Positions 1-11,052 of a stretch of 22,552 nt of DNA are shown here, one piece after another. The notes under the pieces are model-generated. The model was not told where the DNA came from. It saw nothing but the letters and a program-made list of their open reading frames with translations, and did no database searches. The DNA comes from a virus. The translations under genes were made by a program, and so were the position numbers. The stretch is from the IMG/VR virus record IMGVR_UViG_3300023210_000245, positions 1-22,552 of that record; one strand, written 5' to 3'. The stretch's first letter is position 1; every line of letters starts with the position of its first letter.

Positions 1-322
1 TTGATTGAGTTGGTGTAATACCTACTTTAGCATTGTTAGTAGTAATATCCGCTGATTGTTGTGCGGTTATTGTATTTGGCTTATTTAATATTTCTGAAAC
101 ACCACTTGTAGAATCCCAATCAGAATTTACTTGAGGAACTACATCAATGTTAGTCCAAGATTTATTTCTTCTACCATAAGTACTACCATCAATTGGTGCT
201 TCAGTAACAAAGTCAGTTCCAACCTGATCTTTAATAAAGGTAGTTATTATTTCTTGATAATCAGTTACCGTAATTTTTATTACCTCTGGTGTATCAGTAA
301 CTATGATATTAATAGTTTCCAT
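1..322 (-). CDS. Tail-fibre/tail-tip protein, partial (cut by left window edge)
   Basis: An open minus-strand frame starts at the ATG at 322 and runs out of the window with no stop; about 107 codons are visible. The N-terminal ~30 residues form a V/T/I-rich strand pattern. Next comes a segment with NSDWDSTSGVSEILNKP, then ITAQQSADITTNNAKVGIT. Both phrases are of a type common in collar and shaft parts of phage tail fibres and other virion surface proteins, often just before long repetitive or coiled-coil stretches (family knowledge). The start lies 2 nt after the stop of the preceding tail gene, so the two are probably co-translated. As the last gene of the visible tail module it probably encodes a fibre or fibre-attached protein. 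The C-terminal domain, which would show the receptor or enzymatic role, is outside the window. Confidence 0.72.
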   Translation of the reverse strand, partial: METINIIVTDTPEVIKITVTDYQEIITTFIKDQVGTDFVTEAPIDGSTYGRRNKSWTNIDVVPQVNSDWDSTSGVSEILNKPNTITAQQSADITTNNAKVGITPTQS

Positions 323-695: not shown

Positions 696-703
696 CAAAG
701 TTA
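696..703 (-). promoter_or_regulatory. Candidate Bacteroidota -7 box (TAACTTTG)
   Basis: The minus-strand sequence TAACTTTG fits the Bacteroidota -7 consensus TAnnTTTG and is followed by 5 nt (TAATT) and then the ATG of the 121-aa gene at 690. It lies in a non-coding gap. No clear TTG -33 element is present at the usual distance, so strength is uncertain. If used, the transcript would start at or next to the ATG, giving a leaderless mRNA. Confidence 0.35.
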
Positions 704-718
704 CTATTTTTATTTATT

Positions 719-922
719 TTATTCTATCTCATCTGGAACTATTCCATTTTCTATTAAAATCTCTATCCACACATCCTTATCTAAATAAGTATTCATTACT
801 GGTTGTCCCGTTTGCATTGTTTGGTTTGGATAAACAGAACCGTAACTCATTAATATTGTACTATCTGTATTCCATAATATAAAGTAAGTTATTTGACTTG
901 GAAAAACTATTTCATTATTCAT
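719..922 (-). CDS. Small tail-region protein, 67 aa, unknown function
   Basis: A 67-residue acidic protein starting at 922 after an (AT)n run. It has hydrophobic/aromatic strands at the N-terminus ('YFILWNTDSTILMSYG', residues ~13-28), a central Q/T/G-rich turn with 'QTMQTGQPVMNTY', and a C-terminal 'DKDVWIEILIENGIVPDEIE'. Short proteins of this layout, with a final 'D..W...L', occur among tail-fibre genes of Bacteroidota phages and may be fibre-associated or chaperone-like (inference). It sits between the large LRR protein (18 nt upstream) and the Ig-like protein (28 nt downstream) in the same orientation. The opposite-strand reading of this stretch is weaker. No firm family is recognised. 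Confidence 0.6.
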   Translation of the reverse strand: MNNEIVFPSQITYFILWNTDSTILMSYGSVYPNQTMQTGQPVMNTYLDKDVWIEILIENGIVPDEIE

Positions 923-940
923 ATATATATATATTATTTA

Positions 941-2566
941 TTAAGCAACCCCACCACCATCTGTTATTGTCCAATTATAAGTGCTTATAATTGATGCTCT
1001 AGCAGTTGCAGCAGAACCAAAAGCTGAATATTGTGAATTCCCAAAAGCTGCGGTAACATTACTTTGTAATGATTGAGATTCCCAAGATATTAAAGTAGCA
1101 TTGTAATTTGCTATTGATAAACCATTAGCACTACTCATAAAAAAATTAAAATTTGTTGCACTAGTTACATCCCAAGAAGCTAAACTATAATCAAACAAAT
1201 CACAATCTCTTAACATTCCTTGAAAGTTTGTTCCGCTTGATACATCCCAACCAGAACAATCAAAAGTTGTAGTTGATAAATATTCAAATGTATTTTGAAA
1301 GGTTTCTACTAAAGATGTATCCCAACTTGTAACGTTTAAAGATGATAAGCTTGTGCAACTTGCAAATAAACTTGTCATATTTTCAGCACTTGATGTATTC
1401 CAATTTGAAACATCTAAAGCAGTTAAGTTTGTACATTGTAAAAACATAGCTTGAAAATTTTCTACAGAAGATACGTTCCAACTAGAAACGTCTAAAGATG
1501 TTAAATCTTCACACCTATAAAAAGTTAAAAGAAATTTTTGAACACTTGATACGTTCCAATTTGAAACATCTAAAGTTGTTATATCTCTACATTCATAAAA
1601 CATTTGTTGCATATTAGTAACACTACTAACGTCCCAATTTGTTGTCGAACCTACTGTTGTTAAGTTTTGACATTGATAAAACATACCTGTTGTATTTGTC
1701 ACACTACTCATATCCCAATTAGTTGTAGTTAAAGTTGACAAACCTTGACATTGATAAAATATATAAGAAGCATCTAATAAACTTGATGTATTCCAAGATG
1801 AAACATCTAAACTTGTTAATTGATTACAAGCTCTAAAAACACTATTTAAACTTGTAACCGATGATACGTTCCAATTTGAAATATCTAAAGATGTTAAACT
1901 TGAACAATTAAAAAATAAAAATTGCATAGCAGTAACACTTGAAACGTTCCAATTTGCTACATTTAAAGTTGTTAATTGACTACATCCTCTAAAAGTATTT
2001 GTCATTGTCGTAACTGATGATACATCCCAACTTGAAATATTTAAAGATGTTAAGCTTGAACAATTAAAAAAAGAATCATTTAAATTTGTTTGACTACTCA
2101 AATCCCAATTTTGAATATTTGGTATTGATGTTAAAGATGAACAGTTATAAAACATACCCGAAAAACCAGTATTAAGTGTAAATCTTGGAACGTCAGTTGC
2201 AGTTATTGTTAAGTTAGTACAACCCGAAAAAGTACTTCCTTTTGAAACATTAAAACCACCCCAATTAGAAATGTTTGTTATTTTAATAGCATCAGTACCA
2301 GTAGCATTATTACGTAATCCTTTTACGTTCCCCGTAACAGTTATGTTGTAAGTACCACCCGATGAATAAACGTGAGTTGCTTCGGATTGAGTAGGACTTG
2401 TTATTAAATCACTTTGACCATCTCCCCAATTAACAAACCAACTAAAATTTCCAGATTCTAATGGTATTTTATAACTGCTTGAATTAGTTGTTTGGGCATT
2501 TACTAAAGTAGTATCAATAGTAAATGCAAAAGCTTGTTCGTATCTATGTGAATTTACAAAATTCAT
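941..2566 (-). CDS. PKD + BspA/DUF285-type leucine-rich repeat protein, putative tail adhesin (541 aa)
   Basis: Residues ~43-80 look like a PKD domain: WGDG at 47-50, then 'THVYSSGGTYNITVTG'. From ~113 to ~480 there is an array of 26-residue units with consensus hFxxCxxLTsLDVSsWNVSSV. The unit tryptophans fall at 154, 180, 206, 232, 258, 284, 311, 337, 363, 389, 415, 440 and 465. This is the BspA-like leucine-rich repeat (DUF285/PF03382) type, known from surface and secreted proteins that bind host or matrix partners. The C-terminus 'ASIISTYNWTITDGG' is the closing segment often seen on such proteins in flavobacteria. There is no signal peptide, so it is more likely a virion component than an exported protein. 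It starts by a TAATG overlap with the upstream tail gene. Receptor binding is the best guess for its role. Confidence 0.85.
   Translation of the reverse strand: MNFVNSHRYEQAFAFTIDTTLVNAQTTNSSSYKIPLESGNFSWFVNWGDGQSDLITSPTQSEATHVYSSGGTYNITVTGNVKGLRNNATGTDAIKITNISNWGGFNVSKGSTFSGCTNLTITATDVPRFTLNTGFSGMFYNCSSLTSIPNIQNWDLSSQTNLNDSFFNCSSLTSLNISSWDVSSVTTMTNTFRGCSQLTTLNVANWNVSSVTAMQFLFFNCSSLTSLDISNWNVSSVTSLNSVFRACNQLTSLDVSSWNTSSLLDASYIFYQCQGLSTLTTTNWDMSSVTNTTGMFYQCQNLTTVGSTTNWDVSSVTNMQQMFYECRDITTLDVSNWNVSSVQKFLLTFYRCEDLTSLDVSSWNVSSVENFQAMFLQCTNLTALDVSNWNTSSAENMTSLFASCTSLSSLNVTSWDTSLVETFQNTFEYLSTTTFDCSGWDVSSGTNFQGMLRDCDLFDYSLASWDVTSATNFNFFMSSANGLSIANYNATLISWESQSLQSNVTAAFGNSQYSAFGSAATARASIISTYNWTITDGGGVA
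1127..2230 (-). repeat. Tandem 78-bp (26-codon) coding repeats
   Basis: About 13 units with a 78-bp period encode the LRR array; for example the 'ttcca' Trp-codon context recurs at 1398 and 1476. Most units are 26 codons; one is 27 and the last two are 25. Units are diverged at the DNA level but keep the F..C..LT.LDVS.WNVSS frame. Such arrays can gain or lose units by recombination. Confidence 0.8.
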
Positions 2567-3243
2567 TATTGTGCAAAAGGTATATTATAAGTAATTGTTC
2601 CTTTTAACCCAGAACCTGGATTAGTAGAACCTATTTGAGTTACGTGAACAGAAACTATATCTCCAATGCTAAAAGACCCGTTTTGAACAACTGATGGTTG
2701 AGTCGCAGAAGCATAAGTAGTAAGTACTCCTGCATCAATTGTAGCTAATGTAAACATAATACTTACGTTATTTTTTTTCACATCAATTATAATTCCGCTT
2801 CCCGTTGGTGCTTCAGTTACGCTAAATGCAACACTAGAAATATAATTATAACTTCTATTACAAGTCATGGCAAAAACTCTTTGAACTGCTAAATCACTAC
2901 TTTCGTCACTTGCTGCAAAATCAAAATAGTCTGGACTAAATTCCAAACCATTCTCACTTGCATTAACTTTAACGTTTTGCCCTGCTTTTAAATTATAACT
3001 TGTAGGTGTATCCGTTAAATCTAAAAAGCTACTTGCTCCTCCTCCGCTAGTAAGAGCAGCTACTTGTTCCGCAGTACAACTTACTGTTTGTCCAGTAGAT
3101 GCTATTCTTAAAAGAAATAAATCAGCATCTTGTATTCCTACACCAACAGTTAATACTGGTAATTCATTTAATTGTTTTGCCTGATCTATTAAAGTTTGTA
3201 TTGCAGTTGTGTTTTGGTCTACTTGTATTTCTACTCTTGCCAT
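2566..3243 (-). CDS. Tail-tip/virion surface protein, 225 aa
   Basis: Three parts are visible. Residues 1-35 are a heptad-like helix (VDQNTTAIQTLIDQAKQL), a likely trimerising coiled coil. Residues ~72-102 carry 'SFLDLTDTPTSYNLKAGQNV' and 'ASENGLEF', a linker seen in many phage fibre and neck-appendage proteins. Residues ~115-225 form a beta-rich domain with 'APTGSGIIIDVKKNNVSIM', typical of C-terminal domains of virion surface proteins. The role is probably a short tail fibre or an attachment platform for the LRR protein, whose start codon overlaps this gene's stop (TAATG). Family is by pattern recognition only; the exact role is inferred from position in the tail-tip module. Confidence 0.72.
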   Translation of the reverse strand: MARVEIQVDQNTTAIQTLIDQAKQLNELPVLTVGVGIQDADLFLLRIASTGQTVSCTAEQVAALTSGGGASSFLDLTDTPTSYNLKAGQNVKVNASENGLEFSPDYFDFAASDESSDLAVQRVFAMTCNRSYNYISSVAFSVTEAPTGSGIIIDVKKNNVSIMFTLATIDAGVLTTYASATQPSVVQNGSFSIGDIVSVHVTQIGSTNPGSGLKGTITYNIPFAQ

Positions 3244-3247
3244 AATT

Positions 3248-5365
3248 TTATATTTTTATTGAACCACCTAAATTGGTTTTTGTTAATCCTGGAATGTATA
3301 AAGTTCTATAGCTTTCATCATTTCCAATATTTGAATTTATAAATGAGTTAAAATTCTCTCTACTTCTTAATAATGTAACGTTTATTCTATAAAGATTTGT
3401 ATTTAGAATTGGCTCAATTTCAAGATTACTTTCCTTTACATAACCTAAACCATTAACAAATAAATTTTCACTTGACAAAGCTAATGATATTTTCATCATA
3501 ACTTTATATGTTACTTCCGCAAAAGATATGTTCATACCAGAATGAACAATTGATTCTGAAAGATAAGTATTAGTATCTCCTCTTATAACTTGAACACTAT
3601 CATCTATGGTTGAATTAGAGAAAAGAATTTCAGCACGTATAAAGTGTTTTATTCCATAAATGTAAAATACACTTCTATTGTTATTATTTGAATAATTAAT
3701 TGAAACATATTTATTTAAATCATAATTATCTTCAGTCTTTATTATTTCAATCCAATTTGAATAATAATTTCTTGCATCATAAAGATTATCTGTATTAGTT
3801 AATTTAAGTCTAACAGTTGGCTCTAATCCTCCTTGAATAATTATATTATTAAAATCTACATTAAATTCATAAACTTCAAAGTTTAAAATATCATAATATG
3901 ACCTTGCTGTAACTGTTATTGGATTTGTACTAAGATTTCCATATTCAAATATAATAACTCTTTTTTCAATTGTTTCATCATAAAGAATATCTGATATAGT
4001 ATGAACACCTCCAGTTCCAGATGTTTGAATTTGTATATCAACAGTATTTCCAATATATGCAAAGTCTGGAAGATTACCATTTAAATCATAAGTTCCAGTT
4101 ACAACACCCGTTTCATCATAAATATTACCAGTAAGAAAATATATTGCAGTAAGTCCTGGTCCATAGCTATACATTTCTGCATCTAATGCTTCAAATAAAT
4201 TCATATTATTTGACATCTTTTCAACTGTAATTGTTTCTGAAATATCAACTCCTTCACAGTTTTGCATTTTAACTATATTACTATCAAAATTTGATTTAAA
4301 CTGAATCCTAACATTATCTTCTTCTCTAAATATTAATCTTTCATCAAATAATATATCTTGTGTATCTGTTTTAGCTAAAACATTTTCTGGGTTTTTATTA
4401 ATACCATCTTGTGTTCCATTCCATACTTGACTTTCAGCAAACCCAATTGAATTTAAATCTGAAATAAAAACAAATGGCTCTCTACTACTTGAGCTTGATG
4501 AAACTGTATAATCTTTTTGAACTGTACATCCTAAATTATCTTTAACATACATAGTATAATCTCCATCTGTTTGTCCTGTAAAGATATTACTTGCTTGAAA
4601 ATTAACATTATCAAGACTATAAACTAATGATTCTGTAAATGGTTGTTGAGATAATTGATTAATATAAAATATATTTGTTGTAACAGTTGCTCCAAGTAAA
4701 GGATTAGGCAATACTATTATTTTAAAACCAGCAGGCAATATTTTTCTTATATAAATATAATCATCTCCCCATTTTAATTGAGCAACATCTAGACTTGGAC
4801 TTCCTCCTTTGTGAACGTATATTTTTGTGGGTATTGTTCTTGTTACTGGTACTTTAAATGGATTTGTTGTAACTGCAATTATAGGAGCGTTTCCAAGTGC
4901 ATAAGAATAACCAGTAGCTTGTTCGCTTGTAGTTATTTCAACATCTATTAAATCACAAGGTGTTGTTGGATGAACTGCTAAACTTGCTTGTGTAAGAGTA
5001 AAGGTTTCGGGTACTGGTGCATCAATAGATGATGTTGCTCCAGTAGTTGTTGTAAAAGTTTCGAATGACCAAGCTAAATCAATTTCAATTGTAACAACAT
5101 TTGAAACTCTTGAAATAGTCATTAATTTTCCAATATTGTTATCTACATTAAAATATTTTTCATAAGCAATTGCTTCAGCTTCTCCTAATGTTGGTAAAGG
5201 ATTATTTATAGGTATTTGATTATTTTGAGTTCTTGATGTAGTTACAAATGTGCTTAATAACTCAACAGTAGCTAAACTTGATGTTTGTTTTCTAAAGAAA
5301 GAAATTGTTTCTCCGTTTAATGCTGACCTATTGAAAGTTATTACTATATTCCCTTTTTGTGACAT
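3248..5365 (-). CDS. Large tail-tip/baseplate protein with SprB-like repeat (705 aa)
   Basis: A 705-residue beta-rich protein with no signal peptide. Residues ~1-100 are a compact N-terminal domain. Residues ~120-187 form one strand-rich unit (ATGYSYALGNAPI). Residues ~246-288 read 'LVYSLDNVNFQASNIFTG', 'GDYTMYVKDNLGCTV', matching the SprB-type repeat of flavobacterial gliding adhesins. A serine run at ~289-294 then links to a long C-terminal part (~296-705), where 'PFVFISDLNSIGFAES' and 'VRIQFKSNFDSNIV' start a series of Ig-like or jelly-roll segments. The gene follows the 787-aa tail protein after a 39-nt gap and precedes the coiled-coil tail protein by 4 nt. The likely role is a central tail-tip or baseplate protein; enzymatic motifs were not seen. 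The tail role is inferred from position. Confidence 0.75.
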   Translation of the reverse strand: MSQKGNIVITFNRSALNGETISFFRKQTSSLATVELLSTFVTTSRTQNNQIPINNPLPTLGEAEAIAYEKYFNVDNNIGKLMTISRVSNVVTIEIDLAWSFETFTTTTGATSSIDAPVPETFTLTQASLAVHPTTPCDLIDVEITTSEQATGYSYALGNAPIIAVTTNPFKVPVTRTIPTKIYVHKGGSPSLDVAQLKWGDDYIYIRKILPAGFKIIVLPNPLLGATVTTNIFYINQLSQQPFTESLVYSLDNVNFQASNIFTGQTDGDYTMYVKDNLGCTVQKDYTVSSSSSSREPFVFISDLNSIGFAESQVWNGTQDGINKNPENVLAKTDTQDILFDERLIFREEDNVRIQFKSNFDSNIVKMQNCEGVDISETITVEKMSNNMNLFEALDAEMYSYGPGLTAIYFLTGNIYDETGVVTGTYDLNGNLPDFAYIGNTVDIQIQTSGTGGVHTISDILYDETIEKRVIIFEYGNLSTNPITVTARSYYDILNFEVYEFNVDFNNIIIQGGLEPTVRLKLTNTDNLYDARNYYSNWIEIIKTEDNYDLNKYVSINYSNNNNRSVFYIYGIKHFIRAEILFSNSTIDDSVQVIRGDTNTYLSESIVHSGMNISFAEVTYKVMMKISLALSSENLFVNGLGYVKESNLEIEPILNTNLYRINVTLLRSRENFNSFINSNIGNDESYRTLYIPGLTKTNLGGSIKI

Positions 5366-5404: not shown

Positions 5405-7768
5405 TTAAATGGTTTCATTTGCTTTATAAAAACTAAAGTTTCCGCTTTTAGGTTTTAATGAAATTAAATACCCAGTTTCTGCTTCTTCATTTTCATTTAT
5501 AAACTCAAACTTAAAATACCAATTTGGCACTTCTTCAACTTCTCCATCAATTAAAACTTCTGTTGTTCCTAAAATTAAATTCATTAATTCATCATTTACT
5601 GGATGTGTAAAAGTAATAATCTCTGGTTTTAATATTGGTGTATCAAATCTTCTAACATCAAAAGGCTCTCCCTCTCTTACGTTTCCAGATTGTTCTCTTG
5701 GAGCTACACTTGGTAAGTATTCAGTTTGTAAATTTACATTAGCAGTAGAAGAACTTAAACTAACTAATTTATTTAAATTTACTTCTTCATTCATTCCAGA
5801 ACGTAAAACCCAACCATGTCTAAACATAGAACGTTTTGGTGTAAATCTCCAATTATGATATGTATCTGGACTTTCAATTCCAATTGGTTCGTATGCTAAT
5901 GCATCTTCCCATTCTAATTGATTATATATATTTTCTTTTATATTATACTTTAAATCTAAAAACCAAATATCATTATCTCCTTTTGCATCTGCTGTTTCAT
6001 CTAAAAATTGTGGTTGTCTTCTTGACAATTCCATTCCAGTTTCATCGCTTCTTATACTTGTTACTTTAGTAAATTTATTAGTTGTTTTTTTAATAGGAAA
6101 TACATAGTCTGATATTATATTAGGCTCATCTAATCCTAATTGATATTCATATTCTCCTGCTTTTTCATTACCAAATTTTCCAGATGAATTAAACATTTTG
6201 TCATCTACTTCTCTTGAAACTTCTTGAATTTGATTTGGTAATTTAATAACTACTGTTCTTCTGTAATAATGGTCTAAAGGTTCAAATCTTAATCTTTGAC
6301 CTTCGTTAGAAGCTTCAACGCCAACTCCAATATTAAATGTAGAACTTAAAGAATCAATAAGTTTTTTTAAACTAAAAGTAATATTTTTATAAAGTGGATT
6401 TGTTTGTGAAAAATCTCTAAGATTAAAGCCATTAATTAAACCTATCTGTGACCATTCTCCGCTTACTGGATATTGATAATCTTGATATTGTGGTGGGTTT
6501 CCTGATGATGTTGAAGGAAAATCTTCATTTGCTCTTCCAAAAACTCTTGAATAAAACTTCTTTTGTTTACCAGTAATAATTTCTGTTAATCTACTTGCAA
6601 GTTCATTAACAAAAGCAAATCTATAAGGTGTATTAGAATTATAACTTGATGTTTCTTTAACATCTATTTTATACTTTGAAACTGAATATCTAGGCGTAAA
6701 TTTTCCTGCATTTGGAGGATTAATAACACTAAATCCTTCACAATAAAATACAACAGCCATTGCCCAATAATTTGTAATTCCAGTTGCAAAAGTAAAATCC
6801 CCATTATAAACAAAAGGAACTCCTGGGTCAAGATAACCAGTTATAGGAGTTCCACCTACTGGAGGAATTACATCTTCACGTGCAATTGTATATTCTTCAG
6901 TTGATTCATTAAAATTATAGATAACAAGTTTTGCTCTATATCCTGGATTTCCAGTATTTATGTCATAACCCCAATTTACAGTAACATTTATATCAAGACT
7001 TACTTTAAGTGATGATTCAGTAATAACTTCTCCTTGTGTTAATGAATCGTTATAAAAAAAATTAGACTGCCAACCAAGTGATGAATTTTGGTCAAATAAC
7101 ATATCTGTTACTTCAACGTGCCTTCCAAATCCTTTAACTCCAAAAATTGTAGGTATTGTAAATTGATTACTAATTAAATCTCCAACGTTATTAAAATCTT
7201 GAAAATCAGATTGTGATTGAAATGCATTTTCTGCATATCCTTTACCTGATAAATCTCTTCCTTTAATACTTGTTTTATTACTATAATAATTTGATAATTG
7301 ATTGTTATTTAAATCTTTTAATCTTGACAATGAAAATTCATCTGATTGATAAGATTCTAATAACACTTCTAACTCTTTAGAATTGAAATTAAGCGTTACA
7401 GCACCATTCTTTTCTTTTTTAGTTGCAAAGTCAGCTATACCTCTATATTGTTGCTTAAACTTGATTGTATCAATTGTATCGCCAACAACATAACTTTCTC
7501 CTGATCTTAATTTAAATCTTGATAAATATAAATCAGCATTGATACCAAATATTCTATAAGTATCATTAATAAAATCTTTAGCTCTTCCTCTAAAAGATAG
7601 ACCACCAGTAAATTCAGTAATTATACCATGATATTTTTTGTCACGAACAATTTCTAATTCATCATCTTGCCATCCCTCTGGCTCTCTATCCATTATATAA
7701 GTTACTTCGTTTCCTCTTTGTAAAACGTAATAAACATAATCACTATTCTCTATTCTTAATTCGCTCAT
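5405..7768 (-). CDS. Tail-tip/distal tail-like structural protein (787 aa)
   Basis: First large gene after the tape measure, the position of distal-tail and tail-associated (baseplate hub) proteins in siphoviruses. The N-terminus has 'VYYVLQRGNEVTYIMDREPEG' split by turns, then 'KKYHGIITEFTGGLSFRGR' and 'DFINDTYRIFGINADLYL'. This suggests a beta-barrel domain that packs on the tail tube end, followed by 'GIADFATKKEKNGAVTLNF'. The middle and C-terminal parts are strand-rich with no recognised enzyme motif. The C-terminus (~700-787) has 'LKPEIITFTHPVNDELMNLI' and 'VPNWYFKFEFINENEEAETG'. It begins 11 nt after the tape measure stop. Function is inferred from order and size; I recognise the general type from Bacteroidota phages but cannot name a family. 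Confidence 0.72.
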   Translation of the reverse strand: MSELRIENSDYVYYVLQRGNEVTYIMDREPEGWQDDELEIVRDKKYHGIITEFTGGLSFRGRAKDFINDTYRIFGINADLYLSRFKLRSGESYVVGDTIDTIKFKQQYRGIADFATKKEKNGAVTLNFNSKELEVLLESYQSDEFSLSRLKDLNNNQLSNYYSNKTSIKGRDLSGKGYAENAFQSQSDFQDFNNVGDLISNQFTIPTIFGVKGFGRHVEVTDMLFDQNSSLGWQSNFFYNDSLTQGEVITESSLKVSLDINVTVNWGYDINTGNPGYRAKLVIYNFNESTEEYTIAREDVIPPVGGTPITGYLDPGVPFVYNGDFTFATGITNYWAMAVVFYCEGFSVINPPNAGKFTPRYSVSKYKIDVKETSSYNSNTPYRFAFVNELASRLTEIITGKQKKFYSRVFGRANEDFPSTSSGNPPQYQDYQYPVSGEWSQIGLINGFNLRDFSQTNPLYKNITFSLKKLIDSLSSTFNIGVGVEASNEGQRLRFEPLDHYYRRTVVIKLPNQIQEVSREVDDKMFNSSGKFGNEKAGEYEYQLGLDEPNIISDYVFPIKKTTNKFTKVTSIRSDETGMELSRRQPQFLDETADAKGDNDIWFLDLKYNIKENIYNQLEWEDALAYEPIGIESPDTYHNWRFTPKRSMFRHGWVLRSGMNEEVNLNKLVSLSSSTANVNLQTEYLPSVAPREQSGNVREGEPFDVRRFDTPILKPEIITFTHPVNDELMNLILGTTEVLIDGEVEEVPNWYFKFEFINENEEAETGYLISLKPKSGNFSFYKANETI

Positions 7769-7779
7769 TTAAAATTTTG

Positions 7780-10700
7780 TTAATCCCACATTGACATTTT
7801 ATCTCTGTAAGAATTTGTTTCATTAAGTACAGTAACGTTACTATTTACTTTTGCTTTATTAAACCCTGCTTTTATTTCTTCTTTTATTCCAAAAGCTAAG
7901 TTAAAATCTTTTTCTGAAACCTTTTCTCCTCCGCTTGTTAAACTTAAAAGCATTGATTGTTTTTGTAAAGTTTCAAAATCTTTGTGAATAATATCTCCTT
8001 TCTTTAAATCTACAACCGCATTTGTTTGTGATGATGTTAAAAGCTGACCATTTCTTTCAACGTATTCTTGTCTTCCGCCATCATTTATTTGTGCTTTACC
8101 ATCATATTCCATTATACCACCTTCTGCAAATTGTGGTATCGGTGTTGCTACTATGGTTGCAATTTGTGCTGCTCCTGCCGCAGCTACTAAACCTGCATTT
8201 GCTATTGAAAGCCATGTCGGTTGTGCGGGTTGAGCTAAAGCCATAATAATTGCTGTTGCAGTACTTGAAACTGCTTGACTAATTCGTAAAGCTTTATCTA
8301 ATTTAGCTTGTTTCTCTTGCTCTATTGCTTTTTTTCTATTTAACTCTTTTAATCTTAAAGCTTTATTCCTTTCTATTATTTTTGTTTCCTCTTCATCATT
8401 TTTAGCAAGTTCTAATAATCTGTCATACTTTTCTGTTTCCTCATCAATTTCTCTTTGAATATTATCAATCCTATTTTGAAAGACTTGGTCTGCTATAGAT
8501 ATAAGCTCGTTTGCTGTGTTTTGAGCTCCATTAATAAGTTCAACTGCATCGCCTGCTTTTTCAGGGTCAATAATAGCTCCCCCTTCTCCATTACCAGTAC
8601 TTGTAACATTAAAATCTTCTGATGGTTTTGTTTTTATTCCTGCTTTAAGGTCACGTATTTCTTGTAATATTTTTTTCTCTTCATCTAAACTTTTAACATA
8701 TTTTAATTGACGTTCTAATTCATCTACCTCTAATAGTATTAATTCATTTTGAATTTTTACTTTTAAATCTGCAAGTTCAAGTAGTAATTTGCTTTCTTCA
8801 TTACTTCCTTTTCTTGTATTTGCTAGTTTAAGATTTATTACTCTTATCTCTTCTTGTAATTCAGTATTTAGTAAATCTTTTTTAACTATAAATTTATCTG
8901 TTTGAATCTTTTCCCATTCTACACCTCCTTGCTCAAGATTTTTTTGTAATTGTTCAGAATATTGTTGGTTAATTAAAGCTTCTTTTTCTTTAAATTCTAT
9001 TTGATTATATTCACGTTGTTTATTATTTTCTTCTTCTTGTTTTGCTAAAGCTTCGGCATTACCTTTATGCTTTGTTAAATTTTCTTCTAATTTTATGTCT
9101 TCATTTCTTAACCAAAGTTTATTTGCTTCTATTCTATCTTCTTTTTCTAATTCAGCAATTCTTTGTAAATTTTCTGCATTTTCAAAAGACATATCAATTC
9201 TTTTAACAATACCAAATTCTTCATCTTTAGCTAATTCTTTATTTAGTCTTACTCTTTCTTTTAATGTATTAATAAGAAATTTATTTGTTCCTATAAATTC
9301 TTTAGCTAATTTTATTTTCTTTTGTGAAGCATCGCTATCTGGTTCTAAACTTCCACCATTACTTGAAATAAGCAATTCATTTGTTTGTTTCCATATTTCA
9401 AGCTGTAGAGTGTATTGTGCATTTAATTCTTCGTACGCTTTTGTTTTTTTATCAATTTCAATTGAACTACCTTTTTCCATTCCAGTATTTGCAGTACCAA
9501 GACCAGTTAATGCAGAAGCTTGACGATTTGAATCTTTAAGTTTTTCAGCATTTAATTCATCTAGTGCAGCTTGAGTTGCTTTTTCTAAAGCATCCTTAAT
9601 TTTAGTTTGGTCTTCCATTTGTTGTATTGCATACAAATGTCCTTCTTCAGCTTTCTGTTTTCTTAAATCACTTAATTCTTTTTCTTTTTTTAAAACGTTT
9701 TCTGTTGCCTTTAATCTTTCGTCACTTTCAGATTCAGTAGCAGCTTGAATTATTTCTAATGCTTTTACCTCGTCTAATAATTGTTGTTCTGTTTTTTCAA
9801 GAACTCCTGCTAATTTTAATCTTGCTTCAATTCTATCACTTAATGTTTTAGTTGCTATATCTCCAAATAATGCTCCAGATGTTCTATTTGCTGTTTGTTC
9901 AAATGTTTCAAGAAAATTTGTAAGTGAGTTTATACCTAAAGTAATAAGTGACATTGTGCCTCCTATTATTGTTGTAATAGCACTATCTCCCTCTGTTATT
10001 GTTAAAACAAATCTATCCCAAGCACCAGAAAGTTTTCCAACACCAGTAGCTAAATTGTCAACAGATTCTAAAGAATCAATTCCGTAAGCTTTTTCTAATT
10101 CTTTTGCAAATTTTGGTAATGCAGTTGATGAAAGAACTTCTCCTTTTTTAAGCATTTTGTCTAATTGACTAACTGATACTCCAACTGCTTTTGCCATTAT
10201 TCCCATAGCACCTGGTAATCTTTCTCCTAATTGTCTACGTAATTCTTCAGTTGTAACTTTTCCTTTAGATAACATTTGTTCTAATGCTAAATAAACACCT
10301 TTTAATTCATCTGTTCTTAAACCTAATACTGATGATGCTTTTGTAACAGACCTAAATATGCCCATTGTTTCCTTTAAACTTATATTAGAAGCCATTGCTG
10401 CGGCTCTAAATTTTAACCATCTTTCTGCTGTTACACTAATTTTAGCTCCAAATTTATCATTTAATTCTATTAAAAATTCCATAGACCTTTTAACTTCAGC
10501 CATATTACCTTTTGAAATTTTTTCCATTGCAAAACCTAAACTTTGAAATTTTATTGTTAGACTAGCAATACTAAGTAATGCTTTTCCTATAGTAGCTATA
10601 ACTCCTACTAGACCTAAAGCTCCTAACAAACCTTTAAAACCTTTCATCATTCCGCCCATTGCTGAACTATTTTTTTTCTTAGCAACAGTACTTTTATTTG

Positions 10701-11052
10701 TTGCTTTAGCTTCTCCTAATAATGCTCTTGTATTTTTATTAGTAGCAGTTGTATTTTGTCTTTTATTTTTTGAATTAGTTTTAGTAAGGTCTGAATTTCT
10801 TTTAATTTCATTAGAATTTCTTGTTAATCTTTTAGAATTAGTTTTTGTTAAATCTCCTAATCTTTTTATACTATTATTTAATTCTGTTATTTTAGATTTA
10901 AAACCACCCATAGAACTTGCCATCTTATTAAAAGCTGCAACATTTCCAGTTGACATTTTGCCTAAAGTTTTATCTAATAATTTAAGCTCAATTATTAATT
11001 GCTTAATTTCTTTAACTGCTTCGTCTGTTGATAGTTTTACTTTTTCTGCCAT
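7780..11052 (-). CDS. Tape measure protein (1090 aa)
   Basis: Sets tail length and is ejected with the DNA in long-tailed phages. Residues 1-130 are a basic, helix-rich head with an N/K/T-rich linker containing LTKTNSK twice (68-74 and 89-95). Residues ~141-165 are a hydrophobic segment (GLLGALGLVGVIATIGKALL). Residues ~165-350 match the tape measure N-terminal domain (TIGR02675-like), with 'RWLKFRAAAMASNISLKETM', 'VTTEELRRQLGERLPGAMGI' and 'LPKFAKELEKAYG'. A second hydrophobic stretch lies at ~357-380. Residues ~400-930 are a long charged coiled coil. A further hydrophobic segment near ~930-985 precedes 'FAEGGIMEYDGKAQINDGG', the G-rich ending common in these proteins. It starts 1 nt after the preceding stop. 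Confidence 0.93.
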   Translation of the reverse strand: MAEKVKLSTDEAVKEIKQLIIELKLLDKTLGKMSTGNVAAFNKMASSMGGFKSKITELNNSIKRLGDLTKTNSKRLTRNSNEIKRNSDLTKTNSKNKRQNTTATNKNTRALLGEAKATNKSTVAKKKNSSAMGGMMKGFKGLLGALGLVGVIATIGKALLSIASLTIKFQSLGFAMEKISKGNMAEVKRSMEFLIELNDKFGAKISVTAERWLKFRAAAMASNISLKETMGIFRSVTKASSVLGLRTDELKGVYLALEQMLSKGKVTTEELRRQLGERLPGAMGIMAKAVGVSVSQLDKMLKKGEVLSSTALPKFAKELEKAYGIDSLESVDNLATGVGKLSGAWDRFVLTITEGDSAITTIIGGTMSLITLGINSLTNFLETFEQTANRTSGALFGDIATKTLSDRIEARLKLAGVLEKTEQQLLDEVKALEIIQAATESESDERLKATENVLKKEKELSDLRKQKAEEGHLYAIQQMEDQTKIKDALEKATQAALDELNAEKLKDSNRQASALTGLGTANTGMEKGSSIEIDKKTKAYEELNAQYTLQLEIWKQTNELLISSNGGSLEPDSDASQKKIKLAKEFIGTNKFLINTLKERVRLNKELAKDEEFGIVKRIDMSFENAENLQRIAELEKEDRIEANKLWLRNEDIKLEENLTKHKGNAEALAKQEEENNKQREYNQIEFKEKEALINQQYSEQLQKNLEQGGVEWEKIQTDKFIVKKDLLNTELQEEIRVINLKLANTRKGSNEESKLLLELADLKVKIQNELILLEVDELERQLKYVKSLDEEKKILQEIRDLKAGIKTKPSEDFNVTSTGNGEGGAIIDPEKAGDAVELINGAQNTANELISIADQVFQNRIDNIQREIDEETEKYDRLLELAKNDEEETKIIERNKALRLKELNRKKAIEQEKQAKLDKALRISQAVSSTATAIIMALAQPAQPTWLSIANAGLVAAAGAAQIATIVATPIPQFAEGGIMEYDGKAQINDGGRQEYVERNGQLLTSSQTNAVVDLKKGDIIHKDFETLQKQSMLLSLTSGGEKVSEKDFNLAFGIKEEIKAGFNKAKVNSNVTVLNETNSYRDKMSMWD

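Follow-up and report, generated by a model that had tools for sequence, protein, structure and literature searches.

The window is a 22,552-base IMG/VR contig that encodes a terminase, a major head protein, a tape measure protein and two tail proteins, all upstream of, and on the same strand as, a gene for a leucine-rich repeat (LRR) protein. The LRR ORF lies in the tail module, downstream of the tape measure and two tail structural genes, which bears out the tail-operon placement proposed in a preliminary description of this sequence. The genes concerned are:

7780–11052, minus strand: tape measure protein (PF20155, E 1e-24)
5405–7768, minus strand: tail structural protein, first after the tape measure (phrog_15220, E 2e-62)
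3248–5365, minus strand: tail structural protein, second after the tape measure (phrog_26672, E 1e-39)
2566–3243, minus strand: connector, or carrier, 225 aa, with homologues in 13 viral loci; its N-terminal third belongs to the backbone
941–2566, minus strand: PKD-like plus 13-unit BspA/DUF285 LRR protein, 541 aa, putative tail-tip adhesin (profiles, AlphaFold2)
719–922, minus strand: 67-aa ORF, third cassette member, 42% identical to its counterpart after the LRR gene of contig L184; similar small ORFs in L188–L193
325–690, minus strand: 121-aa backbone gene after the cassette (phrog_1084), 93% identical in the sister contig L006

The carrier stop codon and the LRR start codon overlap by 1 nt. 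The first tail protein has its relatives mainly in Polaribacter, Cellulophaga, Leeuwenhoekiella and Tenacibaculum phages, and in Cellulophaga phage phi19:1 its homologue, the next gene and four further downstream genes are annotated as virion proteins by MS/MS. Together, these relatives suggest that the host of the window phage is probably a marine flavobacterium.

In profile searches, the LRR protein matched PF03382 (DUF285) at E 5e-98, with 323.6 bits against a curated cut-off of 25, and the 26-residue repeat TIGR02167 at E 5e-76, with 249.6 bits against a curated cut-off of 30. Successive W[DN]xS motifs are spaced by 26, 26, 26, 26, 26, 27, 26, 26, 26, 26, 25 and 25 residues, and residue identity at a lag of 26 is 0.349, whereas 1000 shuffles gave no more than 0.168 at any lag. 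The 13-unit BspA-type array read from the letters at the outset is thereby confirmed. The accompanying PKD call is less firm. Its WGDG motif is invariant in an alignment of 28 viral proteins, and PKD_4 was matched in 18 of the 28 at E 0.01 or better (best 6.7e-9), but the match of the window protein itself is weak (E 4.6e-5, 23.8 bits) and falls under the gathering score of 27. The protein divides as follows:

2540–2566, minus strand: N-terminal tag MNFVNSHRY, proposed docking peptide (likeness to the tags of cassette relatives and of unrelated adhesins that follow this carrier domain)
2267–2533, minus strand: PKD-like domain with WGDG, residues ~12–100 (weak PKD_4 match; WGDG alignment)
1157–2167, minus strand: 13 LRR units of 25–27 residues each (W[DN]xS spacing)
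944–1156, minus strand: C-terminal cap ending NWTITDGG, common to many viral relatives

An AlphaFold2 model built from 28 viral sequences reached a mean pLDDT of 93.7 and a pTM of 0.88, with residues 1–7 below a pLDDT of 50. Foldseek searches with this model returned LRR proteins in the PDB (LGR5 and TLRs at E about 1e-5, VLR more weakly at E 0.05, TpLRR at TMt 0.50–0.55) and BspA/DUF285 proteins of other viruses in BFVD. The likeness to lamprey VLR and TLR-type receptors lies in the solenoid fold and is one of analogy only: the window protein carries the bacterial BspA-type repeat, and no comparable diversification was seen. In repeat sequence, period and architecture it belongs with the DUF285/TIGR02167 proteins (PARCELs, or "BspA family leucine-rich repeat surface protein"), which are annotated in many phages and large viruses. 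Unlike BspA surface proteins, it has neither signal peptide nor anchor and is encoded in a tail operon. A crude hydrophobicity test found no signal-peptide-like stretch in it, as the first reading had it, and the same kind of test found none of 80 viral relatives with more than seven hydrophobic residues in any 10-residue window near the N-terminus. Palindromic repeat-coding DNA has been described for PARCELs (PMC2996958). In the LRR gene we counted 1 near-palindrome against 0.47 expected by synonymous resampling; with no enrichment, this likeness to PARCELs was dropped.

The DUF285 phage protein family is itself not new. Similar repeats occur in 131 annotated phage isolate records (tblastn), all at less than 60% identity, and at least 506 viral contigs encode LRR relatives when scanned with an alignment-derived pattern; patterns drawn from the window LRR protein by itself picked up no close relative among viral contigs. 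DUF285 was matched in 28 of 28 aligned viral members. Most of the genes around 61 non-redundant viral LRR genes carry no functional name; those that do include portal, head-tail adaptor, baseplate wedge, tail fibre, holin and endolysin genes. Of 110 nearest neighbours of viral relatives, 99 lie on the same strand. A literature search of open-licence papers found annotations but no functional study of phage DUF285/BspA genes. There is precedent for DUF285 proteins in virus particles: AaV_052 and AaV_382 of Aureococcus anophagefferens virus (AaV) were found in purified particles (PMC7507832). Bacteria do have signal-peptide versions, as in Aquimarina (L107); close cellular relatives are thinly sampled, most genome matches being of the distinct BspA/LRR_5 type. 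The idea of a host-type adhesin scaffold therefore keeps its bacterial counterpart, but a family so widespread among viruses gives no indication of recent capture from a host. In very long phage proteins of 1857 to 3109 aa (L016:7792–13365, which is PAU gp103, and genes of L083 and L097), at least two WGDG plus DUF285 blocks share one chain, which suggests adhesin fusion.

The sister contig L006 (IMGVR_UViG_3300025276_000233, 22,549 bases) is 92.8% identical to the window in DNA over 14.7 kb. L006 carries neither the LRR gene nor the small ORF. Its connector, whose C-terminus has diverged, is followed directly by the homologue of gene 325–690. No DUF285 match was present anywhere in this 22.5-kb contig, a partial one, so that an LRR gene could sit elsewhere in the genome. 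In a codon-level alignment, divergence between the two is confined to the stretch from about connector codon 61 to within about 30 bases upstream of gene 325–690. This block of ~2.3 kb, comprising the connector C-terminal domain, the LRR gene and the 67-aa ORF, is the cassette. Its limits are:

3045–3064, no strand: left exchange boundary, inside the connector gene, where DNA identity to L006 falls; the homology between L184 and L188 begins at the equivalent place
698–726, no strand: right exchange boundary, just upstream of gene 325–690, where DNA identity to L006 returns

At window positions 698–712, exactly at the right boundary, the sequence AATAGTAACTTTGTA is conserved with L006. The Bacteroidota promoter element is TAnnTTTG. 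Since TAACTTTG, in the same 698–712 interval, resembles it, the cassette may end at a promoter. The fibre gene that follows the cassette (window 2–322; L006:15690–17762) has repeats of type NNSKVGITPTQASDITT. Both contigs stop inside it, and in the window the break falls where the array begins; the repeats may have interrupted the assembly.

The same cassette is found on other backbones. L184 (IMGVR_UViG_3300025108_000196) has a window-type tape measure (40% aa identity) and terminase (59%). Its connector (223 aa), LRR protein (509 aa) and small ORF (81 aa) occupy the same position as in the window, and its carrier stop and LRR start overlap by 8 nt. L188, L189, L191, L192 and L193 differ in their portal, lack a window-type tape measure and have a terminase that is at most distant (~25%), and yet their LRR proteins are 83–87% identical to that of L184. 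Their DNA is 80% identical to L184 from about connector codon 69 across the LRR gene and the small ORF; beyond the cassette, what they share with L184 is limited to a downstream exonuclease gene and one short patch. A third backbone, that of L195 and L196, bears divergent versions of the carrier domain and LRR gene. The window carrier C-terminal domain is 50–53% identical to those of the LRR carriers L184 and L188–L193, 48.8% to L195, 45.6% to L006 and 44.8% to L196. A window-type carrier domain is followed by the LRR gene in every locus whose contig extends to the next gene (window, L184, L188, L189, L191, L192, L193, L195, L196), a linkage favoured by the fact that several carrier loci were found by querying with the carrier. 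From these comparisons, connector N-termini are backbone-specific, unrelated across backbones, and the C-terminal domain travels with the adhesin. The same block thus sits on unrelated backbones with sharp boundaries, as an exchangeable cassette should. Judged from the alignments, carrier C-terminal domain, LRR gene and small ORF changed together in two separate phage comparisons. What is new here is the cassette, moved as a unit between otherwise unrelated viruses.

Change within the array follows two patterns. Related viral LRR proteins can be separated by gaps of whole units, 24–26, 49, 75 or 125 residues (for example in the pairs L041/L084, L037/L090, L039/L063 and L091/L099), and the LRR proteins of L195 and L196, at 425 and 476 aa, differ by 51 residues. 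In seven of seven copies of one cassette (the L184/L188–L193/L199 set, two backbones), unit number is constant over 506 aligned residues. Among these seven copies 138 of the 506 sites vary, the PKD-like part being less variable than the later units and C-cap. The LRR gene has a dN of 0.086, higher than its neighbours gp189 (0.025) and gp163 (0.014), with the LRR set spanning more phages than the neighbour sets. Its dN/dS is about 0.21, which denotes purifying selection, and we therefore do not claim hypervariability under diversifying selection. Of the earlier proposal that repeat number or exposed positions may tune host range, the shift by whole 25/26-residue units between some related phages survives; the constancy in the seven copies and the low dN/dS speak against it. 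The small ORFs of 83–84 aa behind the LRR gene in L188–L193 gave a mean dN/dS of 0.78 across five phages, an uncertain value for so short a gene.

The part of the carrier that travels with the adhesin is:

2569–2946, minus strand: carrier C-terminal beta-sandwich (jelly-roll-like) domain, proposed socket (low-confidence model)

The carrier model is poor, with a pLDDT of 52 overall and ~60–79 in the core, and its Foldseek matches to the lambda gpJ fibre and C1q-like beta-sandwiches were set aside on that account. The cassette LRR proteins begin alike, with FVNSHRY in the window and LTNSYRY, FINSYRY, LVNSYRY or FLNTFWY in relatives. Searching isolate phages with the carrier domain returned S-CRM01, MD05, Carli, Mwe-JY26, Tiera and MinM2, in each of which the carrier overlaps the next gene by 1 or 4 nt. 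That gene starts IINPFRF in S-CRM01, IINPYVF in MD05, MIQPSRF in Carli, IINPFRA in Mwe-JY26, LLNPWRF in Tiera (after 11 residues) and LLDPYRF in MinM2; the motif arose from the first two of these isolates and held in the four that came after. These pairs share with the window a related C-terminal carrier domain, an overlap of 1–4 nt and a hydrophobic-N/D/Q-P-aromatic-R/V-F-like tag. They differ in what the tag is attached to: in the same order, an unassigned domain, Fib_succ_major, a weak F5/8C-like domain, peptidase S11 plus LamG, LamG and an unassigned domain, versus PKD plus LRR in the window.

The general form of the tag is hydrophobic-hydrophobic-N/D/Q-P/S-aromatic-R-F/Y. Of 1489 distinct ORFs of 100 aa or more in the phage loci examined, 16 have the tag pattern, which was written after most examples had been seen; all 16, about nine of them independent lineages, lie directly behind a carrier. 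Four carriers (L077, PB119, Pokken and a second one in S-CRM01, with a partial FILGRYG) have no clear tag behind them. In L077 (6520–10049), another viral LRR gene is separated by a 187-aa gene, itself without a clear tag, from the gene of a protein whose C-terminal domain is of carrier type (34% identity). The tag DNA pattern gave 23 matches in 765 cellular genomes, none at a gene start behind a carrier domain, a count that says nothing on prophages. The tagged tail-associated protein of Microcystis phage Mwe-JY26 (L204:3345–4919) combines a D-alanyl-D-alanine carboxypeptidase/beta-lactamase-like domain with LamG and may be a peptidoglycan-acting adhesin. Synechococcus phage MinM2 and Planktothrix phages Pag-Yong1 and Pra-JY27 (L206, L210, PP438419.1) agree in length (65,014 bases) and in match scores, and may be a single phage that was deposited with different host names.

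We think it likely that the LRR protein is a phage tail-tip adhesin delivered in an exchangeable cassette; this reading comes from sequence comparison, and its tag docking, presence in the virion and receptor binding are what we infer. The carrier N-terminus would be held in the tail tip and its C-terminal beta-sandwich would offer a socket, on which the LRR protein would dock through its FVNSHRY-type tag. The PKD-like domain would then act as a spacer, and the surface of the 13 LRR units would bind a structure on the host cell. Swapping the cassette would bring a new receptor contact with the tail untouched, and gain or loss of whole units, together with sequence change in the array, may alter binding more slowly. 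More tentatively, and with somewhat less than even confidence, we propose a general plug-and-socket arrangement, in which adhesins of unrelated fold (LRR, LamG, Fib_succ_major and others) dock by a short N-terminal tag in the C-terminal beta-sandwich of the tail protein encoded just upstream, and whole cassettes carry binding modules from one backbone to another.

Carrier domain and adhesin gene might also travel together through adjacency only, without binding each other, as homologous recombination in conserved flanks would carry neighbours along. The left boundary falls inside the carrier gene in both comparisons (window/L006 and L184/L188), however, and it is the C-terminal domain that stays with the adhesin while the N-termini are unrelated across backbones; we regard adjacency alone as doubtful, if the most serious of the alternatives. 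A different role in the tail is rather unlikely in our judgement: an accessory or reversible adhesin, or a decoration binding sugar, mucus or particles, which raises encounter rates while the fibre beginning at 2–322 gives specificity. Window and L006 both keep this separate fibre gene downstream, and because the L006 contig has the fibre and lacks the LRR gene, this lineage can probably do without the LRR protein; the packaged AaV proteins (PMC7507832) also fit an accessory role. In L184 and L188, by contrast, nothing resembling a fibre gene is seen between the LRR gene and the holin/exonuclease-type genes, so there the LRR protein may be the main binder. Very improbable, finally, is that the gene is cargo, with a product that the infected host displays or that works within the cell and never enters the virion. 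Such a role would suit an accessory, patchily distributed gene of a family best known from bacterial surface proteins, but the product lacks a signal-peptide-like stretch, its start overlaps a tail gene, it is exchanged with a tail-protein domain, and its relatives have structural and lysis genes among their neighbours, most of which share their strand.

Tailed phages have exchangeable receptor-binding modules, fibre tips and adhesins on a conserved carrier. The arrangement that we favour, an adhesin delivered in a cassette, resembles these in that the adhesin is swapped and the tail backbone stays, with the partner domain and a small ORF exchanged too. It differs in that the binder would be an LRR array that forms a polypeptide of its own, marked by a short tag at the N-terminus, and in that unrelated backbones are spanned. 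The case also shows putative binding modules crossing between unrelated phages, with boundaries inside a structural gene. The window and L006 form a natural pair with and without the module, in which the contribution of an LRR adhesin to a phage can be examined directly. In uncultured phages, receptor-binding proteins are not easily recognised, and a rule combining carrier domain and tag would flag the binder in many contigs, whatever its fold.
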